Assembly: GCF_029105185.1 (NCBI RefSeq)
Contig: NZ_JAFMZK010000002.1
Location: forward strand, 310,001-374,000
Direction: 5' to 3'
DNA from: Aliiroseovarius sp. Z3
GTDB taxonomy: Bacteria; Pseudomonadota; Alphaproteobacteria; Rhodobacterales; Rhodobacteraceae
DNA length: 64,000 nt
Below are positions 38,924 through 59,784 of this stretch, in pieces. Within the stretch, counting starts at the first letter, position 1. Every line of letters begins with the position of its first letter. Below the pieces are notes generated by a model. The model did not search any database. It was not told the origin of the DNA and was given only the letters and a program-made list of their open reading frames with translations. The position numbers and the translations under genes were made by a program.

Positions 38924-39703
38924 TCAGAGCCTGCGTTCGACCATCATCTTCTTGATCGACGCAATGGCCTTGGCCGGGTTCAGACCTTTCGGACAGGTCT
39001 TGGCGCAGTTCATGATGGTGTGGCAGCGATACAGCTTGAACGGATCTTCCAGCTCGTCCAGACGCTCACCGGTGGCTTCGTCGCGTGAATCAATGATCCA
39101 GCGATACGCATGCAGAAGCGCGGCCGGTCCAAGATAGCGATCGCCGTTCCACCAATAGCTGGGGCACGAGGTCGAGCAGCTGGCGCACATGACGCATTCA
39201 TAAAGACCGTCCAGCTTCTTGCGGTCTTCGATGGACTGCTTCCACTCTTTCGCAGGGCGGTTGGTCTTGGTTTCCAGCCACGGCATGATCGAGGCGTGCT
39301 GCGCATAGAAATGCGTCAGGTCCGGGATCAGGTCGCGCACCACCGGCATGTGCGGCAGCGGATAGATCTTCACGTCGCCCTTGATCTCATCCATGCCATA
39401 AATACAGGCCAACGTGTTGATCCCGTCGATATTCATCGCACAAGACCCACAAATGCCTTCACGGCAGGATCGGCGGAAGGTCAGGGTCGGATCAATCTCG
39501 TTCTTGATCTTGATCAGCGCGTCCAGAACCATCGGGCCGCAGGTATCCATATCGACGAAATAGGTGTCGACACGCGGGTTTTCCCCGTCATCCGGTGTCC
39601 AGCGATAAATCTGGAACTTGCGCACGTTGGTTGCGCCTTCCGGTTTGGGCCATGTTTTGCCCGTGCGGATGGTCGAGTTCTTCGGAAGTCTGAATTGAAC
39701 CAT
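38924..39703 (-). CDS. sdhB: Succinate dehydrogenase iron-sulfur subunit
   Basis: Electron-transfer subunit of complex II. It has 259 residues with the 2Fe-2S motif [21 protein letters not shown], the 4Fe-4S motif [13 protein letters not shown] and the 3Fe-4S motif [17 protein letters not shown]. It starts 12 bp after sdhA and is the last gene of the operon, with a terminator 28 bp downstream. It links TCA-cycle succinate oxidation to ubiquinone reduction. Confidence 0.99.
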
Positions 39704-39715
39704 ATCGTGTCCTCC

Positions 39716-41521
39716 TTAGAACGTCCGCGCTTTGGGCGCGATTTTCTTCAAGGCGATACCGCCTTCTTTCTCGGTGGTCAGCGGGTCGGTGATAACCGGG
39801 CGATAGCTCAGGTCGACCTTGGTGCCATCCACGCGGCTGACGGTGTGGACGCGCCACTTCTTGTCGTCGCGTTTCGGGAAATCCTCGTGTGCGTGGGCGC
39901 CGCGGCTTTCCTCGCGGGCTTCTGCACCGTGGATGGTGGCCAGAGCGTTCGGCATCAGGTTGGCCAGTTCCAGCGTCTCCATCAGGTCCGAGTTCCAGAC
40001 CAATGAGCGATCTGTGACGGCAAGGTCGTCCATCTTGGCGGCAACCTTGGTCATCTTCTCGACGCCTTCCTTCATCGTCTTGGCGGTGCGGAAGACGGCA
40101 GCATCGGCTTGCATGGTCTTCTGCATTTCAAGGCGCAGTTCTGCGGTTGGCACGGCACCATTGGCGTTGCGCAACCCGTCGAAGCGATCAAACGCCTTGT
40201 CGACCGAGGATTGGTTCAGCTTGGGATTGGCGGCGTCGGCATCCACCACCTTGCCGGCGCGGATCGCGGCAGCGCGGCCAAAGACCACAAGGTCGATCAG
40301 CGAGTTCGAGCCAAGACGGTTGGCCCCATGCACGGACGCACAGCCCGCTTCACCCACGGCCATCAGGCCGGGAACGACAGCGGTCGGATCGTCTTTGGTC
40401 GGATTCAGAACTTCACCCCAATAGTTGGTCGGGATGCCGCCCATGTTGTAATGCACCGTCGGCAGAACCGGGATCGGTTCCTTGGTCACATCAACACCGG
40501 CAAAGATCTTGGCGCTTTCCGAGATACCGGGAAGGCGTTCGGCCAGTGCCTCGGCAGGCAGGTGGTCGAGATGCAGGAAGATATGATCTTTCTCGGGGCC
40601 GACACCACGACCTTCGCGGATTTCCATGGTCATCGAACGCGACACGTAATCGCGGGGGGCAAGGTCTTTATACTGGGGCGCATAACGCTCCATGAAACGC
40701 TCGCCTTCCGAGTTGACCAGATAGCCACCTTCGCCACGCGCCCCTTCGGTGATCAGACAGCCCGAGCCATAGATGCCGGTCGGGTGGAACTGCACGAATT
40801 CCATGTCTTGCAGGGCCAGACCCGCACGGGCCACCATGCCGCCGCCATCACCGGTGCAGGTGTGGGCCGACGTGGCCGAGAAGAAGGCGCGTCCGTAACC
40901 GCCGGTGGCCAGAACGACCATCTTGGCGTTGAACACGTGCATCGTGCCATCGTCCAGTTTCCAGCAGACAACCCCCTGACATTCGCCGTCTTCCGACATG
41001 ATCAGGTCGATCGCGAAATACTCGACATAGAACTCCGCGTTGTTCTTCAGCGATTGCCCATACAGCGTGTGCAGGATCGCGTGACCGGTCCGGTCGGCTG
41101 CAGCACAGGTGCGTTGTACGGGCGGTCCGTCACCAAATTCGGTCGTGTGACCGCCGAAGGGGCGTTGGTAAATCTTGCCTTCCTCGGTGCGCGAGAAGGG
41201 CACGCCGTAATGTTCCAGCTCGTACACCGCCTTGGGGGCTTCGCGGGCCAAATATTCCATCGCGTCCGTGTCGCCCAGCCAGTCCGAGCCTTTGACGGTG
41301 TCATACATGTGCCACTGCCAGTTGTCCGGGCCCATGTTGGACAGGGACGCGGCAATGCCGCCCTGCGCTGCGACCGTGTGTGATCGGGTCGGGAACACCT
41401 TGGTCACGCAAGCAGTGCGCAGGCCCTGTTCGGCCATGCCAAGTGTCGCACGCAGACCAGCGCCACCGGCACCGACCACGACCACGTCATATTCGTGCGT
41501 TTCGTATTCGTAAGCTGCCAT
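39716..41521 (-). CDS. sdhA: Succinate dehydrogenase flavoprotein subunit
   Basis: Catalytic subunit of complex II, oxidising succinate to fumarate. It has 601 residues. The covalent-FAD histidine lies in [10 protein letters not shown], the dinucleotide fold starts at [12 protein letters not shown], and [10 protein letters not shown] and the [10 protein letters not shown] stretch are conserved. Starts 18 bp after sdhD. Members of this family share features with fumarate reductase, but the gene order C-D-A-B indicates Sdh. Confidence 0.99.
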
Positions 41522-41539: not shown

Positions 41540-41911
41540 TTAAAAGGCGATGCGGGCAAGGCCATACAGGCCAACCGCAAGAATTGTGTAAGCCAATGCG
41601 GTGCAGGTGATCACAAGGACTTTCTTGACTACGCCGCGAGAGTAGTCCTCGATCACCACTTGGATGCCATGGCGAAAGTGAACCATCGCGGTGACAAGCG
41701 TCATCGCTGCAATGATGGCGGGGAAGGGGCGCTGGTAATAGGCGATGGCTTCCTCGTAGGGCAGCCCAAGCGCGCAACCGAAGGTCAGCGCGAACAGCGG
41801 CATCAGGATCAGAAGGCCCACAGCCGAAATGGCCTGTCCCCAGAAGTGTTCGGTGCCAGAGCCGGCAGCCCCTTTGCCTACGGCGCGTTTGCGGTCGGTT
41901 AGATAATGCAT
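41540..41911 (-). CDS. sdhD: Succinate dehydrogenase membrane anchor subunit D
   Basis: A 123-residue membrane protein with three hydrophobic helices that with SdhC binds haem b and ubiquinone. The MVHFRHGIQVVIEDYSRG segment with its His is the SdhD pattern. The start lies 11 bp after sdhC. Identity rests on position as much as on sequence. Confidence 0.94.
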   Translation of the reverse strand: MHYLTDRKRAVGKGAAGSGTEHFWGQAISAVGLLILMPLFALTFGCALGLPYEEAIAYYQRPFPAIIAAMTLVTAMVHFRHGIQVVIEDYSRGVVKKVLVITCTALAYTILAVGLYGLARIAF

Positions 41912-41922
41912 GCCTGTCCCCC

Positions 41923-42306
41923 TTACACGATGATGGCGACGATGATCGCCAGAATGACAGACCCGATGATGACGCCAATGCCCATCTTTTCGGCAGTTGG
42001 AACATCAAGACCAATGCCAATATCCCAGATCAGGTGTCGCAGACCTGATAGCGCGTGATAGCACAAGGCCCACAGCGCCAGAAACATGATCACATCCCCG
42101 ATGAACGAGGTCATCAGACCGTTCACCAGATCATAGTAACCCGGTCCCATTGCGGCTGCGATGAACCACCACACAACCAGGATCGCGGCCCCCAGAAGGG
42201 CGACACCGGTTATCCGGGCGAAGATCGAGGTGATGGAGGTCAGCTGCGGGCGGTAAATCTGCAGATGCGGGGATAGTGGGCGATTGCCCCTATTCACGTC
42301 GGCCAT
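41923..42306 (-). CDS. sdhC: Succinate dehydrogenase cytochrome b556 subunit
   Basis: A 127-residue membrane protein, first gene of sdhCDAB. The N-terminal NRPLSPHLQIYRPQLTSITSIFARITGV is the SdhC signature; the haem-ligand His is in CYHALSGLRHLIWD. Three helices are visible. A double TGTGATCACA site lies 122-156 bp upstream of the start. Confidence 0.96.
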   Translation of the reverse strand: MADVNRGNRPLSPHLQIYRPQLTSITSIFARITGVALLGAAILVVWWFIAAAMGPGYYDLVNGLMTSFIGDVIMFLALWALCYHALSGLRHLIWDIGIGLDVPTAEKMGIGVIIGSVILAIIVAIIV

Positions 42307-42427
42307 GGCGGCCTCCTTCTGTCTGTTGCGACTGTTGTGACAGGAATAACGTCATTTGCAGTGCAGAGTCACGCGTTATGGGCAGCAAAACTGGCCGAAT
42401 TTGCGCTAACATGAAGGAAATCTTCAC

Positions 42428-42462
42428 CATGTGATCACAAAAAATATTCTTGTGATCACATG
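42428..42462. promoter_or_regulatory. Double TGTGATCACA operator upstream of sdhCDAB
   Basis: Two perfect copies of the palindrome TGTGATCACA (42430-42439 and 42451-42460) have centres 21 bp apart, two helical turns. Together they form a 13-bp inverted repeat (CATGTGATCACAA / TTGTGATCACATG). The same arrangement precedes sucC, and a single copy precedes the GntR/FCD gene at 59.7 kb, the likely regulator. Confidence 0.8.
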
Positions 42463-47310: not shown

Positions 47311-47353
47311 GCAATTTGTGATCACAGTTTTTTCGGGTGTGATCACAAATTGC
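47311..47353. promoter_or_regulatory. Double TGTGATCACA operator upstream of sucCDAB
   Basis: Copies at 47317-47326 and 47338-47347 have centres 21 bp apart, exactly as at sdhC. The flanks extend the symmetry to a perfect 16-bp inverted repeat (GCAATTTGTGATCACA / TGTGATCACAAATTGC) with an 11-nt spacer. It lies 107-150 bp ahead of sucC. Confidence 0.82.
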
Positions 47354-47460
47354 CGGGTTTAGCGCAAAAATCCACCTAATCAGCAGAAAGTGTTTTCGAC
47401 CATCCGCGCAGTTGTGCATGGTGTCCGCGACCAAATGGACCAACTGGATAGGATGATTTC

Positions 47461-48654
47461 ATGAACATTCATGAATACCAGGCGAAGGCCCTTCTGAAAT
47501 CCTACGGTGCCCCTGTTTCCGACGGGCGCGCTGTTTTGAGAGCAGAAGAAGCCAAGACCGCCGCAGGTGAACTCGACGGACCGCTTTGGGTGGTCAAAGC
47601 ACAAATTCACGCAGGTGGCCGCGGTAAAGGTTCCTTCAAGGAAGCTGACGCTGGCGAAAAAGGCGGTGTGCGCCTGACCAAGTCGGTGGAAGAAGCCGCC
47701 GAGGAAGCCAAGAAGATGCTGGGCCGCACCCTTGTGACCCACCAGACCGGCCCGGCAGGCAAACAGGTCAACCGCATCTATATCGAGGCCGGGTCCGGCA
47801 TTGAGCGCGAGCTTTACCTTGCTCTGCTGGTTGACCGCCAAACCTCGCGCATTTCGTTCGTCTGCTCGACCGAAGGCGGCATGGACATCGAGGAAGTCGC
47901 CGCCGCGACGCCGGAAAAAATCCTGAGCTTCTCGGTCGATCCCGCGACGGGGTATCAAGGCTTCCACGGCCGCCGCATCGCCTTCGCGCTGGGCCTGGAA
48001 GGCGCGCAGGTCAAGCAATGCGTGAAACTGATGGGTCAGCTCTACAAGGCTTTCGTTGAGAAAGACATGGAGATGCTGGAGATCAACCCGCTGATCGTGT
48101 CTGACAGCGGCGATCTGAAAGTGCTGGACGCCAAGGTTGGCTTCGACGGCAACGCCATTTATCGCCACCCGGACATCGCCGAGCTGCGCGACACCACCGA
48201 AGAAGACCCGAAAGAGCTGGAAGCGTCGAAATACGACCTGAACTACATCGCTCTGGACGGTGAAATCGGCTGCATGGTGAACGGTGCTGGTCTGGCAATG
48301 GCCACCATGGACATCATCAAGCTCTACGGTGCTGAGCCTGCCAACTTCCTTGACGTGGGCGGCGGTGCGACCAAAGAGAAAGTGACCGAAGCCTTCAAGA
48401 TCATCACCTCGGACCCGAACGTAAAGGGCATCCTTGTGAACATCTTCGGCGGCATCATGCGCTGTGACGTCATCGCCGAGGGCGTGGTTGCAGCCGTGAA
48501 AGAAGTGGGCCTGAAGGTTCCGCTGGTCGTACGTCTGGAAGGCACCAACGTGGAAGCCGGTAAAGACATCATCAACAATTCAGACGTTGATGTGATCGCA
48601 GCCGACAACCTGTCGGACGGTGCTGAGAAAATCGTGAAAGCGGTGAAGGGTTAA
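47461..48654 (+). CDS. sucC: Succinyl-CoA synthetase beta subunit
   Basis: Nucleotide-binding subunit of succinyl-CoA synthetase, which forms succinate with substrate-level phosphorylation. It has 397 residues with an N-terminal ATP-grasp domain ([32 protein letters not shown]) and a C-terminal CoA-ligase domain ([34 protein letters not shown]). First gene of the suc operon; 4 bp separate it from sucD. Confidence 0.99.
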
Positions 48655-48658
48655 GACA

Positions 48659-49543
48659 ATGGCAGTTCTTATTGACGAAAACACCAAGGTCATCTGTCAG
48701 GGCTTCACTGGCTCGCAGGGCACCTTTCACTCGGAACAGGCCATTGCGTATGGCACCAAGATGGTCGGCGGTGTCACGCCGGGCAAAGGTGGGCAGACGC
48801 ATCTGGATCTTCCGGTCTTCAACTCGGTTCACGAAGCCAAGCACGTCACCGAAGCCAATGCTTCCGTGATCTACGTGCCGCCGCCCTTCGCAGCGGACTC
48901 GATCCTTGAGGCGATTGATGCGGAGATGGAACTGATCGTTTGCATCACCGAAGGCATTCCGGTGCTGGATATGATGCGCGTTCAGCGTGCCTTGGAGGGC
49001 TCAAAATCGCGCCTGATCGGCCCGAACTGCCCCGGTGTCATCACGCCGGACGCCTGTAAGATCGGCATCATGCCCGGCCACATCCACAAACGTGGTTCGG
49101 TTGGTGTTGTGTCGCGCTCCGGCACCCTGACCTATGAGGCTGTGAAACAGACCTCGGACATCGGTCTGGGCCAGTCGACCGCGGTGGGCATCGGCGGCGA
49201 CCCAATCAAGGGCACCGAGCACATTGATGTGCTGGACATGTTCCTGGACGATGACGAAACCCAGTCGATCATCATGATCGGTGAAATCGGTGGCTCGGCA
49301 GAAGAAGAAGCTGCTGAGTTCCTGGCCGAACAGAAGAAGAAAGGCCGCTGGAAGCCGGTCGCTGGCTTCATCGCTGGCCGCACGGCACCTCCGGGCCGCC
49401 GCATGGGTCACGCTGGCGCGATTGTTGCCGGTGGCAAAGGCGGCGCCGAAGACAAGATCGAAGCCATGCGTTCGGCTGGCATCGTGGTCGCAGACAGCCC
49501 CGCCACGCTGGGCGAGGCCGTTCTGGAAGCCATCGGCAAATAA
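48659..49543 (+). CDS. sucD: Succinyl-CoA synthetase alpha subunit
   Basis: Carries the CoA-binding Rossmann domain ([21 protein letters not shown]) and the phosphohistidine loop [14 protein letters not shown]. It has 294 residues, the normal length. Forms the heterotetramer with SucC. Followed by a 59-bp gap containing a GC-rich hairpin before sucA. Confidence 0.99.
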
Positions 49544-49602: not shown

Positions 49603-52581
49603 ATGACGGATCAAAGCCCCAACGACCTTTTCCATGCTTCAAGCTTCATGCAAGGTCACAACGCTGAGTATCTTGAACAGCTTTACGCCCAATATGCGCG
49701 CGACCCGAACGCGGTGGATGCCGCGTGGCAGGCGTTTTTTGCCGAACTTGGGGATGACGGCGGCGACGTCACCGCCGAGGCGGCAGGCCCGTCCTGGGCG
49801 CGTGCCGACTGGCCGCCGATGCCAACCGGTGACCGGGTTCATGGACTGGACGGCCAGTGGCCGGAAGAGCCGGTGGCCGAGGCCAAGGCGGCGGGCAAGA
49901 AGATCGAAGCCAAGGCGGCTGAAAAGGGTGTTCAACTGTCCGATGATCAGGTCAAGCGCGCGGTGCTGGATTCGATCCGCGCCCTGATGATCATTCGTGC
50001 CTATCGGATCCGGGGCCATCTGGCCGCCGATCTGGATCCGCTGGGAATGCGCGAAGCCTCGGACCATCCCGAGCTTGATCCGTCCTCTTACGGGTTCACC
50101 GACGCGGACATGGATCGCCCGATCTTCATCGATAACGTGCTGGGGCTGGAAGTCGCCTCGATGCGGCAGATTCTGGAGATCGTGAAACGCACCTATTGCG
50201 GCACGTTCGCGTTGCAATACATGCACATTTCAGACCCCGGCCAGTCGGCATGGCTGAAAGAGCGGATCGAAGGCTTCGACCGTGAAATCAAGTTCACCCG
50301 CGAAGGCCGTCGCGCCATCCTGAACAAGCTGGTCGAGGCTGAGGGCTTCGAGAAGTTCCTGCATGTGAAATACATGGGCACCAAGCGGTTCGGCCTTGAT
50401 GGGGGCGAGGCGCTGATCCCCGCGATGGAGCAGATCATCAAGCGCGGCGGTCAGCTTGGCCTGAAAGAGATCGTGATCGGGATGCCGCACCGGGGGCGCC
50501 TGTCTGTGCTGGCGAACGTGTTGCAAAAACCCTATTGCGCGATTTTTAACGAATTTCAGGGCGGCAGCTTTAAACCGGAAGAGGTCGATGGCTCGGGCGA
50601 TGTGAAATATCACCTCGGCGCCAGCTCGGATCGTGAATTTGACGGCAATATCGTGCACCTGAGCTTGACTGCGAACCCATCCCACCTTGAGGCCGTGAAC
50701 CCGGTCGTGCTGGGAAAGGTGCGCGCCAAGCAAGAACAGATGAACGACCATGACCGCGATCAGGTGTTGCCGATCTTGCTGCATGGTGATGCGGCCTTTG
50801 CCGGTCAGGGGGTCGTCGCCGAAGGCTTTGGCCTGTCTGGTCTGGTGGGTCACAAGACCGGCGGCACGATGCATATCGTTGTGAACAACCAGATCGGGTT
50901 TACCACCGCGCCGCATTTCAGCCGCTCGTCGCCTTATCCGACGGATATCGCATTGATGGTGGAAGCCCCGATTTTCCACGTGAATGGTGATGACCCAGAA
51001 GCCGTTGTGCATGCCGCGCGCGTTGCGACTGAATTCCGCCAGAAGTTCCACAAGGACGTCGTGCTGGATATCTTCTGTTATCGCCGCTTCGGTCACAACG
51101 AAGGCGATGAACCGATGTTCACCAACCCGTTGATGTACAAGCGGATCAAGAAGCATCAGACCACCCTTCAGATCTATACGGATCGGCTGGTGAATGACGG
51201 ATTGATCCCGGCGGGAGAGATTGAGGATATGAAAGCCGCCTTCCAGGCCAAGATGAACGAAGAGTTCGAGGCCGGGAAAGACTATAAACCCAACAAGGCC
51301 GATTGGCTGGATGGGCGCTGGTCGCATCTTGAGCGGGAAAGCGATGAATACCAGCGCGGCAAGACCGAGATTTCGTCGGACACACTGGCCGAGGTCGGTA
51401 AGGCCCTGACCACGGTGCCCGAGGGTTTCCCCCTGCACAGAACCGTGGGTCGCTTGCTTGAGGCCAAGAAAGAGATGTTCGAAAGCGGCACCGGGTTTGA
51501 CTGGGCGACCGGCGAGGCGTTGGCTTTCGGGTCACTTCTGACCGAAGGGTTCCCGGTGCGCCTGTCGGGTCAGGATGCCACGCGCGGCACGTTCAGCCAG
51601 CGCCATTCCGGCCTGATCAATCAGGACAACGAAGAACGCTATTACCCGCTGAACCACATCCGCGAGGGGCAGTCGCGCTATGAGGTCATCGACTCGATGC
51701 TGTCGGAATACGCGGTGTTGGGGTTCGAGTATGGCTATTCGCTGGCCGAACCCAACGCGCTGGTGATGTGGGAGGCCCAGTTCGGCGACTTCGCCAACGG
51801 CGCCCAGATCATGTTCGACCAGTTCATCTCGTCCGGCGAGTCAAAATGGCTGCGCATGTCGGGCCTGACAGTCCTTCTGCCGCACGGGTTCGAAGGGCAG
51901 GGACCGGAGCACAGCTCGGCCCGGCTGGAGCGTTTCCTGCAGATGTGTGGTGGCGACAACTGGATCGTGGCCAACTGCACCACGCCCGCCAACTATTTCC
52001 ACATTCTGCGGCGCCAGCTGCATCGCGGCTATCGCAAACCTTTGATCCTGATGACGCCGAAATCGCTTCTGCGTCACAAGCTGGCGGTATCGGATGCGAC
52101 GGACTTCACCGAGGGCTCCAGCTTCCACCGCGTCTTGTGGGATGATGGCGACCGCGACAACGGCACGGGCCGGTCCGAGGCCAAATTGGTCACGGACAAG
52201 AAGATCAAGCGCGTGGTGATGTGTTCGGGCAAGGTCTATTACGACCTGTTGGAAGAGCGCGACCGTCGCGGCATCACCGACATCTATCTGTTGCGGCTTG
52301 AACAGTTCTATCCCTTCCCCGCAATGTCGCTGGTGAAAGAACTGGAACGCTTCAAACAGGCCGAGATTGTCTGGTGTCAGGAAGAGCCCAAGAACCAGGG
52401 TGCCTGGTTCTTTGTTGAACCGAATATTGAATGGGTGCTGACCCGGATCGGGGCCAAGCATACGCGGCCCGTCTATGCCGGTCGCCCGGCATCGGCGTCG
52501 CCCGCCACAGGTCTGGCATCACAGCACAAAGCACAACAAGAGGCGCTCGTGGACGCGGCGCTGAACATGGAAGGAAATTAA
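49603..52581 (+). CDS. sucA: 2-oxoglutarate dehydrogenase E1 component
   Basis: Thiamine-diphosphate decarboxylase of the 2-oxoglutarate dehydrogenase complex. It has 992 residues, slightly longer than the E. coli enzyme. The N-terminal E2-binding segment (YLEQLYAQYARDPNAVDAAWQAFF), GMPHRGRLSVLANV, the ThDP motif beginning near GDAAFAGQGVV and running to VNNQIGFTT, and the FGHNEGDEP stretch are visible. Followed 3 bp later by sucB. Confidence 0.98.
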   Translation: MTDQSPNDLFHASSFMQGHNAEYLEQLYAQYARDPNAVDAAWQAFFAELGDDGGDVTAEAAGPSWARADWPPMPTGDRVHGLDGQWPEEPVAEAKAAGKKIEAKAAEKGVQLSDDQVKRAVLDSIRALMIIRAYRIRGHLAADLDPLGMREASDHPELDPSSYGFTDADMDRPIFIDNVLGLEVASMRQILEIVKRTYCGTFALQYMHISDPGQSAWLKERIEGFDREIKFTREGRRAILNKLVEAEGFEKFLHVKYMGTKRFGLDGGEALIPAMEQIIKRGGQLGLKEIVIGMPHRGRLSVLANVLQKPYCAIFNEFQGGSFKPEEVDGSGDVKYHLGASSDREFDGNIVHLSLTANPSHLEAVNPVVLGKVRAKQEQMNDHDRDQVLPILLHGDAAFAGQGVVAEGFGLSGLVGHKTGGTMHIVVNNQIGFTTAPHFSRSSPYPTDIALMVEAPIFHVNGDDPEAVVHAARVATEFRQKFHKDVVLDIFCYRRFGHNEGDEPMFTNPLMYKRIKKHQTTLQIYTDRLVNDGLIPAGEIEDMKAAFQAKMNEEFEAGKDYKPNKADWLDGRWSHLERESDEYQRGKTEISSDTLAEVGKALTTVPEGFPLHRTVGRLLEAKKEMFESGTGFDWATGEALAFGSLLTEGFPVRLSGQDATRGTFSQRHSGLINQDNEERYYPLNHIREGQSRYEVIDSMLSEYAVLGFEYGYSLAEPNALVMWEAQFGDFANGAQIMFDQFISSGESKWLRMSGLTVLLPHGFEGQGPEHSSARLERFLQMCGGDNWIVANCTTPANYFHILRRQLHRGYRKPLILMTPKSLLRHKLAVSDATDFTEGSSFHRVLWDDGDRDNGTGRSEAKLVTDKKIKRVVMCSGKVYYDLLEERDRRGITDIYLLRLEQFYPFPAMSLVKELERFKQAEIVWCQEEPKNQGAWFFVEPNIEWVLTRIGAKHTRPVYAGRPASASPATGLASQHKAQQEALVDAALNMEGN

Positions 52582-52584
52582 GCC

Positions 52585-54084
52585 ATGAGCATCGAAGTAA
52601 GGGTTCCCACTCTGGGGGAAAGCGTCACCGAAGCGACCGTCGCCACATGGTTCAAGAAACCCGGCGATGCCGTGGCCGTGGACGAAATGCTCTGCGAGCT
52701 TGAAACCGACAAGGTCACGGTAGAGGTTCCGTCACCCGCCGCTGGCGTGATGGGCGAAATCGTCGCCGCCGAAGGCGAAACAGTGGGTGTTGATGCGCTT
52801 CTGGCAACGATTGGCGAAGGCGAAGGGGCTGCTCCGGCCCCCGCGAACGAGGCGAAGGCCGACGCCGCACCTGCCGCTTCGGGCGATGAGGCGCAAAGCG
52901 TCGATGTCATGGTGCCCAGCCTTGGCGAAAGCGTGACCGAAGCCACGGTGTCGAGCTGGTTCAAGCAAGTCGGCGACGCCGTTTCACAGGACGAAATGCT
53001 GTGCGAGCTTGAAACCGACAAGGTCTCGGTCGAAGTGCCCGCGCCTGCCGCCGGTGTGCTGACCGAGATATTGGCCGCCGAAGGCACCACGGTCGATGCC
53101 TCGGCCAAGCTGGCGGTAATCAGCGGTAGCGCAGACGGGGCCGTTGCGCCCGCTGCCAAGCCTGCCGAAGCGCAGGGCACCACCGCGACCACCGGCAAGG
53201 ATGTCGAAGACGCGCCGTCCGCCAAGAAAGCCATGGCGGAGGCCGGTCTGAAACCGGGCGACGTGCAGGGCACGGGTCGCGACGGTCGCGTGATGAAACA
53301 TGACGTGGCCGCCGCCGTTGCCGCGCCGAAAGCTGCGCCTGCCCCCGCTGCCGCACCTGCTCCCGCACGTCCTGCCGGGGATGCCGCGCGCGAGGAACGC
53401 GTGAAGATGACGCGCCTGCGCCAGACCATCGCGCGCCGTCTGAAAGACAGCCAGAACACCGCCGCCATGCTGACCACCTATAACGAGGTGGACATGACCG
53501 AGGTGATGGCCCTGCGCAACGAATACAAAGCCGAGTTTGAAAAGAAGCACGGCGTGCGCCTGGGCTTCATGTCGTTTTTCACCAAGGCCTGCTGTCACGC
53601 TCTGAAAGAAGTGCCGGAAGTGAATGCGGAAATCGACGGCACCGACATCGTTTACAAGAACTATGTGAACATGGGCGTCGCCGCCGGTACGCCTACGGGT
53701 CTTGTCGTGCCGGTGATCAACGATGCGGACGCCATGTCCTTTGCCGCGATCGAAAAGGCAATTGCCGAGAAAGGCAAACGCGCCCGCGACGGCAAACTGT
53801 CGATGGAGGAAATGCAGGGCGGCACCTTCACCATCTCGAACGGGGGTGTCTATGGCTCGCTCATGTCCTCGCCGATCCTGAACCCGCCGCAATCGGGCAT
53901 CCTTGGCATGCACAAGATCCAGGACCGCCCGATGGCGATCAACGGAGAGGTCGTGATCCGCCCGATGATGTATCTGGCGCTCAGCTATGACCACCGTATT
54001 GTCGACGGCAAAGGCGCCGTGACCTTCCTTGTGCGCGTGAAAGAGGCGCTGGAAGATCCACGTCGGTTGTTGATGGATTTGTGA
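52585..54084 (+). CDS. sucB: 2-oxoglutarate dehydrogenase E2 component with two lipoyl domains
   Basis: Dihydrolipoyl succinyltransferase core of the complex. It has 499 residues, about 90-100 more than the single-lipoyl type. Two consecutive lipoyl domains are present (residues 2-77 and 106-180) with lipoyl-lysines K43 and K146, both in ELETDKV. An Ala/Pro-rich linker, a peripheral-subunit-binding domain (about 214-248, [31 protein letters not shown]) and the catalytic domain ending [14 protein letters not shown] follow. The two lipoyl domains are nearly identical around the lysine also at DNA level, a sign of duplication or gene conversion. Confidence 0.97.
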
Positions 54085-58468: not shown

Positions 58469-58563
58469 TTTCTTCCTCCCTTGGGTGAATTTTTCGCCTG
58501 TTAAGCAACTCTAGCCTAGCAGTGGTCGATCTGAAAAGGTTCCCTTATTTCTTGCAAAGTGGG

Positions 58564-59070
58564 ATGATTTACGTAAAAACTACTGTTCAGGCAAAAATAT
58601 TCGGAAAATTTACGTTGGATAAGCTAGACACTAGAATTCTTTCCATTCTTCAGAAGGACGGCGCGATTTCGATGGCGCGACTGTCTGAAAAGGTCGGGTT
58701 GTCGATCTCGGCCTGCCACCGGCGGGTCAAGCTGTTGGAAGCGGAGGGGGCCATCACCAACTATGCCGCCCGCCTGAGCCGCAAGGCGATCGGGTTGGAA
58801 ATTCAGGTGTTCATCGAGGCCAAGCTGGTCAGCCAGCGGCGCGAAGATATTCAGGCGTTCGAGGCTGCCATCCTAGAAATGCCCGAGGTTTTGGAATGCC
58901 ACCTGATCTCGGGCGAGTTCGATTACTTGCTGCGTGTGGCGGCACGAAACACCGAGGATTACGAGAAACTTTACCGGGACCGCCTGTCCTCAATCCCATC
59001 CTTCGCGCAGATGAAAACGCTGCTCAGCTTGTCCACGGTGAAAGAATTTCGGGGGTTCCATCTGGGGTGA
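58564..59070 (+). CDS. Lrp/AsnC family transcriptional regulator
   Basis: A regulator with an N-terminal helix-turn-helix (LDKLDTRILSILQKDGAISMARLSEKVGLSISACHRRVKLLEAEGAI) and a C-terminal RAM ligand-binding domain (about residues 75-150). From ATG 58564 it has 168 residues. A TTG at 58615, just before LDKLDTRIL, or a GTG at 58522 could also be the start; the conserved domain begins only at 58615. The AT-rich leader and divergent usp-symporter operon suggest that it senses an amino acid such as alanine and controls that operon; this is inference. Confidence 0.88.
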   Translation: MIYVKTTVQAKIFGKFTLDKLDTRILSILQKDGAISMARLSEKVGLSISACHRRVKLLEAEGAITNYAARLSRKAIGLEIQVFIEAKLVSQRREDIQAFEAAILEMPEVLECHLISGEFDYLLRVAARNTEDYEKLYRDRLSSIPSFAQMKTLLSLSTVKEFRGFHLG

Positions 59071-59082
59071 TGGTTGTCGCTG

Positions 59083-59736
59083 TCAGTCGGCCACCAGCAT
59101 TTTCAGCCCCTGCGTCACATCCGTGCGCACCGCCAGCCGCAGCGCGGGTTCATCCCCGGCCGCCAATGCCGACAAGATCATCCGGTGGTGGCGCTGCAGG
59201 TCGGTGCGTTGACGACGGGCATAAAGCGCGCGCATGGTCGGGCCAAGTTGCAGCCACACCGTTTCGGCCACCGCAAGAATCGCGGGGGCCTGCGCGCGCA
59301 GATAGAGCGTGCGATGAAATTCCAGATTGGTGCGCAGATACCCGACCGCGTCCTGCTTGGTGACACATTCCGACACCCGCACGTTGATGGCGCGCAGCCG
59401 GTCGATCAGCGCCATATGGGCGCGGGGCAGGGCGCGGGCGGCCAGTTCCGGTTCCAGAAGGGATCGCAGCGCGGCCAGTTCCTCGATCCGTTCCGCCGTC
59501 AGGTCGGGCGCCGACACGCGGCCCGAACTGGACAGGGTCAGCGCGCCTTCTGCGGCCAACCTGCGCACAGCCTCGCGGGCCGGGGTCATCGAGACATCGT
59601 ATTCCTTGCCGATGCCACGGATGGTCAGGCTTTGGCCGGGGTCCAGCTCTCCGTGCATGATCCGTGCGCGCAGGCTGCGATAAACGCGTTCATGGGCGCT
59701 GGACGTATCGGTTTGTGAACGGGTTTGAGCCTGCAT
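59083..59736 (-). CDS. GntR family regulator with FCD domain
   Basis: A 217-residue FadR-subfamily regulator. The winged helix (residues about 14-75) includes VYRSLRARIMHGELDPGQSLTIRGIGKEYDVSMTPAREAVRRLAAEGAL; the FCD ligand domain has the metal-binding His residues in NLEFHRTLY and the HHRM stretch. Ligands of the class are usually carboxylic acids. The operator TGTGATCACA begins 8 bp ahead of the ATG, so autoregulation is likely. The same palindrome, doubled, lies before sdhC and sucC, so this is the best candidate regulator of those operons. Confidence 0.9.
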   Translation of the reverse strand: MQAQTRSQTDTSSAHERVYRSLRARIMHGELDPGQSLTIRGIGKEYDVSMTPAREAVRRLAAEGALTLSSSGRVSAPDLTAERIEELAALRSLLEPELAARALPRAHMALIDRLRAINVRVSECVTKQDAVGYLRTNLEFHRTLYLRAQAPAILAVAETVWLQLGPTMRALYARRQRTDLQRHHRMILSALAAGDEPALRLAVRTDVTQGLKMLVAD

Positions 59737-59743
59737 AGTGTAA

Positions 59744-59755
59744 TTGTGATCACAA
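59744..59755. promoter_or_regulatory. TGTGATCACA operator at the GntR/FCD gene
   Basis: TTGTGATCACAA, a perfect 12-bp palindrome, occupies the place of the ribosome site just upstream of the regulator's ATG (gap 8 bp from the 10-bp core). It is identical in core to the doubled sites at sdhC and sucC. Confidence 0.78.
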
Positions 59756-59784
59756 ATTAGCGTGGCGTCAACACGCCCGTTCGG

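Follow-up and report, generated by a model that had tools for sequence, protein, structure and literature searches.

Two copies of the palindrome TGTGATCACA, separated by 11 bases, precede both sdhC and sucC, which serve adjacent steps of the TCA cycle, in the 64,000-nt stretch of Aliiroseovarius sp. Z3 DNA analysed here (the window). This doubled arrangement is real, very probably functional and mostly accounted for as the regulon of an AkgR-type regulator. The pairs are highly likely to be tandem operators at which a GntR/FCD regulator of this type, encoded at 59083-59736, would activate sdh and sucCD-sucAB, an assignment that rests on protein family, motif, targets and co-occurrence. A preliminary description of the window had proposed a common regulator for sdh and sucCD/sucAB; this proposal is strongly supported by the family-wide presence of pairs before these operons, and also by the finding that the gene and the doublet occur together and are jointly missing from scattered lineages. 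The same description missed that this window also contains the gene of the likely common regulator, with a site of its own (Table 1), and that a regulator of this kind had been published for R. sphaeroides.

Table 1. Positions of the sites, promoter elements and genes discussed in the window.
Feature	Position	Strand	Remarks
sdh paired palindrome, TGTGATCACA-N11-TGTGATCACA	42430-42460	-	upstream of sdhC; copies at 42430-42439 and 42451-42460
suc paired palindrome, TGTGATCACA-N11-TGTGATCACA	47317-47347	+	upstream of sucC; copies at 47317-47326 and 47338-47347
GTTAGCGCAAAT, candidate CceR (LacI-family) site	42399-42410	-	2 mismatches to GTTAGCGCTAAC; between pair and promoter
TTTAGCGCAAAA, weak candidate CceR site	47358-47369	+	3 mismatches to GTTAGCGCTAAC
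Putative sdh promoter	42344-42372	-	GTGACT 42367-42372 and TTATTC 42344-42349, 17-bp spacer; GTGAC in relatives
sdhC, succinate dehydrogenase cytochrome b556 subunit	41923-42306	-	TIGR02970, PF01127
sdhD	41540-41911	-	downstream of sdhC
sdhA	39716-41521	-	downstream of sdhD
sdhB	38924-39703	-	last gene of sdhC-sdhD-sdhA-sdhB
sucC, succinate-CoA ligase beta subunit	47461-48654	+	NF001913
sucD	48659-49543	+	behind sucC, same direction
sucA	49603-52581	+	behind sucD, same direction
sucB	52585-54084	+	behind sucA, same direction
AkgR-type regulator, 217 aa, GntR helix-turn-helix and FCD	59083-59736	-	PF00392, PF07729; proposed binder of all five sites
Single TGTGATCACA before the GntR gene	59745-59754	-	-18 to -9 of the ATG (8 bp before); overlaps expected -10
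TTGACG, putative -35 of the GntR gene	59766-59771	-	TTGAC-to-core distance kept in relatives

The preliminary description had placed the two pairs with palindrome centres 21 bp apart, and its coordinates proved exact at both loci. The sdh pair lies 123 nt from the sdhC ATG on the minus strand and the suc pair 113 nt from the sucC ATG on the plus strand, with the end of mdh (47203) upstream of the latter. A whole-genome scan, which had been suggested as a check, confined the pair to sdhC and sucC at two mismatches or fewer (3,519,893 bases), and one extra paired match appeared at C6:316928 once three mismatches were allowed. At the base composition of the window (58.6% G+C), about 1.2e-6 pairs with the 11-base spacing would be expected in the genome versus the 2 observed. 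Exact single copies of TGTGATCACA amount to 9 in the genome against about 2.0 expected by base composition: four are in the pairs, one precedes the GntR gene, one is intergenic (C4:43515) and three fall inside open reading frames. These last three (C5:172046, C5:176286 and C6:309493) were set aside. The window itself holds five exact copies, the fifth of which, before the GntR gene, went unmentioned in the preliminary description. When up to two mismatches were tolerated, 37 single palindromes were found in the window compared with a shuffled mean of 26.5, and 4 of 100 shuffles reached 37; singles are therefore mildly in excess at this threshold and exact paired sites are what stands out.

Mirror symmetry extends outward beyond the palindromes, by 6 bp further at the suc pair and by 2 bp at the sdh pair. 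The loci had been said to share no other obvious sequence, which turned out to be incorrect since TTAGCGCAAA is found between pair and gene at both (42400-42409 on the minus strand and 47359-47368 on the plus strand), with no third copy in the window. Elsewhere in the genome, the exact TGTGATCACA at C4:43515 (core at 1502 of locus L004, in a ATTTGTGATCACAAT context) is accompanied 256 bp beyond by a second core, TGTGATCACG, at 1758. This stretch is flanked by ATPase-like and folC-like genes, both named by eye, and is a possible further target.

The regulator gene lies 12-17 kb from the two pairs. Its product belongs to the GntR helix-turn-helix family, scoring 53.6 bits for PF00392 (cut-off 27) and 64.8 bits for PF07729 (cut-off 24.3), while no model in an NCBIfam scan of the protein exceeded its cut-off. 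The closest named relatives are from Aliiroseovarius and at most 91% identical, and no record named R. sphaeroides is present among the best 80 relatives. Of the 80 closest named relatives, 71 carry a core GTGATCAC near the start of akgR, and in 62 of these 71 TTGAC starts 18 bp before it. In a wider family sample, a site with at most one mismatch precedes akgR in 20 of 29 relatives and no site was seen there in the other 9, so that the arrangement is less regular than among the 80 closest named relatives. The overlap of the akgR site with the expected -10 suggests autorepression, and its being alone suggests that doubling would be unnecessary for recognition. One relative (L135, G187) carries in its akgR promoter two core palindromes with centres 13 bp apart, compared with the usual single site. 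An Lrp/AsnC-type regulator gene (58522-59070) adjoins the AkgR-type gene in convergent orientation. Metal sites of FCD domains are formed by an Asp and three His. For the protein encoded at 59083-59736, an alignment of 14 relatives shows N137, H141, H184 and D206 of the FCD domain unchanged throughout, and its ligand pocket may differ from that of the usual FCD domain.

Conservation among Rhodobacteraceae was a further check put forward in the preliminary description. Among 295 genomes of the family, each from a different genus, 250 have the pair with up to two mismatches; the reversed-pattern control gave 0. A hand count of these 250 genomes gave two pairs in 178, one in 63 and three in 9. 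The loci of 81 pairs in relatives were inspected, 29 taken from this search and 5 and 47 from further searches; G115:C1:186475, found in the family search, was left out, and doublets with other spacings (L134-L136) are also outside the 81. Among the inspected pairs, 79 precede sdhC (37) or sucC (42). The distance from pair to ATG, with the window's own two pairs included, ranges from 106 to 190 nt for sdhC (38 rows) and from 95 to 149 nt for sucC (43 rows). One pair (L038) precedes sucA, whose start is 135 nt away, with mdh on the opposite side, and another (L127, G042) is located about 135 nt before fumC; in the genome of the window, no site with two mismatches or fewer was found within 1.5 kb upstream of fumC. 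Two of the 81 pairs (L111 and L118) carry three mismatches and three (L099, L120 and L133) have their palindromes separated by 10 bp. In G197 (L017, 1501-1552), a degenerate third palindrome with two mismatches extends the 21-bp spacing on the upstream side of the sucC pair.

Outside the family, 1 of 380 genomes of the class has the pair (G440), and the reversed control also returned 1 (G367), which by count is chance level. The G440 pair (locus L081, 991-1021) has the 21-bp spacing and is followed by a GntR gene whose product is 30% identical to the AkgR-type protein; with such a neighbour, the paired design may have been put to use in parallel here. A degenerate third palindrome lies upstream of the pair at this locus.

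The spacing of the two palindromes is largely fixed. Doublets of GTGATCAC separated by 0-30 bases, searched for over whole genomes, occur in 267 of 295 family genomes, a number that includes some chance doublets, and the reversed control gave 1 match (G243). Among the 75 matches listed, counted by hand (plus strand, 37 genomes, 31 gaps allowed), centres are 21 bp apart (13 bp between cores) in 67, 20 bp apart (12 bp between cores) in 3 and at other distances in 5. Across 78 aligned pairs with the 11-bp spacer, core bases vary only twice, a constancy partly built in by the selection at two mismatches or fewer. The outer flanks favour T/T before and A/A after the pair, and inner flanks are weaker.

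The sdh pair also lies mostly at a set distance from promoter-like elements. GTGAC is present 56-59 nt past the pair in 29 of the 38 sdhC rows and at 47, 68, 77 and 78 nt in four others, while 5 rows have no GTGAC 40-85 nt past the pair. The 29 aligned promoters have in common GTGAC(A/T), an A-tract and a -10-like TA. In the same way, a doublet followed after 43-73 bases by GTGAC was found in 171 of 295 family genomes and not in 124. Among the 150 matches listed, which include some sucC pairs or pairs read away from the gene with a chance GTGAC, the distance is 56-59 nt in 125, and the remaining 25 comprise 8 at 46-47 nt and 10 at 67-70 nt (about one helical turn off) and 7 elsewhere. This closeness to whole turns was never equalled in 100,000 trials of random placement outside 55-60, over a search range that covered only about one helical turn on each side. 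At the sucC promoters just a weak GTTT is conserved, some 46-49 nt beyond the pair, and phasing was consequently tested for sdh alone. The sdh phasing agrees with activation from a single helical face, and together with the 21-bp spacing it is consistent with cooperative binding on the same face.

Gene and doublet were moreover found to go together. An AkgR-type relative at E<1e-50, a threshold set after the gap in the search results had been seen, is encoded in 268 of 295 family genomes. By hand tally, the core doublet is present in 261 of the 268 genomes with the gene versus 6 of the 27 without it (Fisher 4e-21), and the pair with up to two mismatches in 244 of 268 versus 6 of 27 (Fisher 9e-15), genera not being independent in either comparison. 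The six genomes that carry the doublet yet encode no close AkgR (G019, G096, G114, G256, G264 and G273) were searched again, and their best AkgR relatives are 27-41% identical; three of these genomes are 73-77% complete and the others are 91-100% complete, in 210-320 contigs. Conversely, the gene is found without an exact core doublet in G040, G122, G147, G155, G166, G281 and G291.

The 50 rows of a SucC tree came from 19 of 21 genomes that have neither gene nor doublet, from 25 genomes that have the pair and from a further 6, namely four with the doublet without a close AkgR as well as G040 (gene present, no exact core doublet) and G291 (likewise); G021 and G172, which lack both and yielded no sucC locus of their own, were left out. 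On this tree the state of lacking both requires at least 7 changes, at least 5 of them forced by well-supported branches. After midpoint rooting, 10 of the 19 genomes branch outside the rest and 9 inside, so that an early absence and later joint losses of gene and doublet both appear likely. No exact core was found in the 300 nt before sucC in any of these 19 genomes.

The kind of regulator, its targets and its core motif are already known from Rhodobacter sphaeroides, as far as the consulted parts of the literature go. A 2015 study by Imam in mBio reportedly equates RSP_0981 with AkgR and is said to describe AkgR as activating TCA genes. In the portions of the published accounts consulted, RSP_0981 is a GntR regulator predicted to control succinyl-CoA synthetase (sucCD), sdh and 2-oxoglutarate dehydrogenase (PMC4344238), and GTGATCAC is given among the sites of AkgR, called a transcriptional activator (PMC6365646). 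The present system thus has in common with AkgR (RSP_0981) the GntR family, these targets and the motif, GTGATCAC being contained in all five sites of the window. The assignment of regulator to targets, itself a prediction, the motif and the term activator are all taken from this R. sphaeroides literature. The same portions make no mention of palindromes 21 bp apart, of promoter phasing or of a single akgR site. A search over partial texts did not find the 21-bp doubling with phasing, which does not show them to be unpublished. The parts of the AkgR literature consulted also lack the lone site before akgR with its constant 18-bp distance to a -35-like TTGAC. In the part consulted of a study on Pseudomonas simiae, PS417_07240 is likewise a proposed regulator with GTGATCAC, located 47-40 nt before a start codon, and is 32% identical to AkgR (PMC6365646); it differs in being linked to a deoxyribonate catabolic cluster, another pathway, with one palindrome named there. 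By sequence profile, the nearest solved structure to the protein encoded at 59083-59736 is McbR (PDB 4p9f, E 1e-22), a different regulator.

The sequences themselves show the motif and its spacing, the gene context, conservation and co-occurrence, the joint absence in several lineages and the phasing to the sdh promoter-like element, and we infer the following course of events. One dimer of the AkgR-type protein would bind each GTGATCAC palindrome, and the two dimers of a pair would sit two helical turns apart on the same face of the DNA and may bind cooperatively. Their place would be roughly 80-120 bp ahead of the points where transcription starts, as estimated from the promoter-like elements. 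Pairs bound in this way would activate transcription of complex II and of sucCD-sucAB, the sites before sdhC and sucC-sucD-sucA-sucB being presumed to serve for this purpose. At the single site covering the akgR -10, the same protein would repress its own gene. The signal is probably a carboxylic acid, as for known FCD regulators.

Many GntR regulators are repressors and the site before akgR lies over the expected -10 of that gene, so that the same regulator could be imagined to repress through the pairs, the two dimers blocking transcription until an acid of the TCA cycle releases them. This is unlikely, as the end of the sdh pair and the -35-like element that follows it are separated by 56-59 nt and phased by whole turns, which is the geometry of an upstream activator, and as AkgR is termed a transcriptional activator in the part of the literature consulted (PMC6365646). 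A slightly lower probability is given to the binding of the pairs by another regulator, either an AkgR paralogue or an unrelated factor, the GntR gene of the window then being linked to them by descent only. The genome has nine FCD-domain genes, and six genomes keep the doublet without a close AkgR, both of which leave room for such a protein. Nevertheless, by coordinates the gene at 59083-59736 is the one FCD gene of the nine that adjoins any of the nine exact single sites, gene and doublet are jointly absent in several lineages, and AkgR/RSP_0981 is the protein named for this motif and these targets in the published portions consulted (PMC6365646, PMC4344238).

It was also considered that the pairs act as RNA, since their mirror-symmetric outer flanks make each of them an inverted repeat with 12- or 16-bp arms and an 11-nt loop that could form a hairpin, terminator or attenuator. 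This is extremely improbable, given that each half keeps a palindrome of its own, unneeded by a hairpin, and that recognition as DNA agrees with the upstream position and with the lone site at akgR. An intrinsic terminator was rejected because no T-run was visible by eye behind either pair. Equally negligible is the probability that the pairs are CRP- or FNR-type sites. TGTGA and TCACA are indeed the halves of the CRP consensus, and the consensus sites of these proteins read TGTGA-N6-TCACA or TTGAT-N4-ATCAA. Here, the halves abut without the 6-bp spacer and the conserved core is the contiguous GTGATCAC, on which ground this class was dismissed; moreover, no CRP analogue is predicted in R. sphaeroides according to the part of the report consulted (PMC4344238).

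If the pairs are indeed AkgR-type operators, a regulator known from one model species would become a rule for most sampled genera of Rhodobacteraceae. Sites would then form a readable code, in which a single site stands for the regulator itself and a doublet, at a fixed promoter phase, for its targets, and this code would let targets be called from sequence in many Rhodobacteraceae. The proposed two-dimer, phase-locked design would also lend itself well to testing how a GntR protein activates from a phased position. The chances are about even that it represents an old device of the family, namely an operator of two dimers fixed at 21 bp, locked in phase with the sdh promoter and sliding by whole turns, that activates complex II and succinyl-CoA synthetase/2-oxoglutarate dehydrogenase, with single versus double sites setting the sign of control (repression at its own -10).

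Finally, the sequence shared between pair and gene may point to a second input. The published motif of CceR (RSP_1663), [A/G/T]GTT N6-8 AAC[A/C/T] in the part of the source consulted (PMC4344238), is fitted by GTTAGCGCTAAC. This LacI-family protein is unlike the AkgR-type regulator in family and motif, and would be a second input and not the binder of the pairs. The likeness to CceR of R. sphaeroides lies in sdh being a predicted target there, according to the same part (PMC4344238), and in the site-like sequence between pair and promoter here. In another account, consulted in part, the CceR regulon comprises sdh, 2-oxoglutarate dehydrogenase and fumarase in R. sphaeroides and not in Paracoccus denitrificans (PMC11323563). 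Sequences like GTTAGCGCTAAC, a 12-mer picked after the window and its relatives had been viewed, are present in the first 70 nt past the pair in 10 of 38 sdhC rows and 5 of 43 sucC rows, as against 0.9 and 0.7 in shuffles of dinucleotide blocks.
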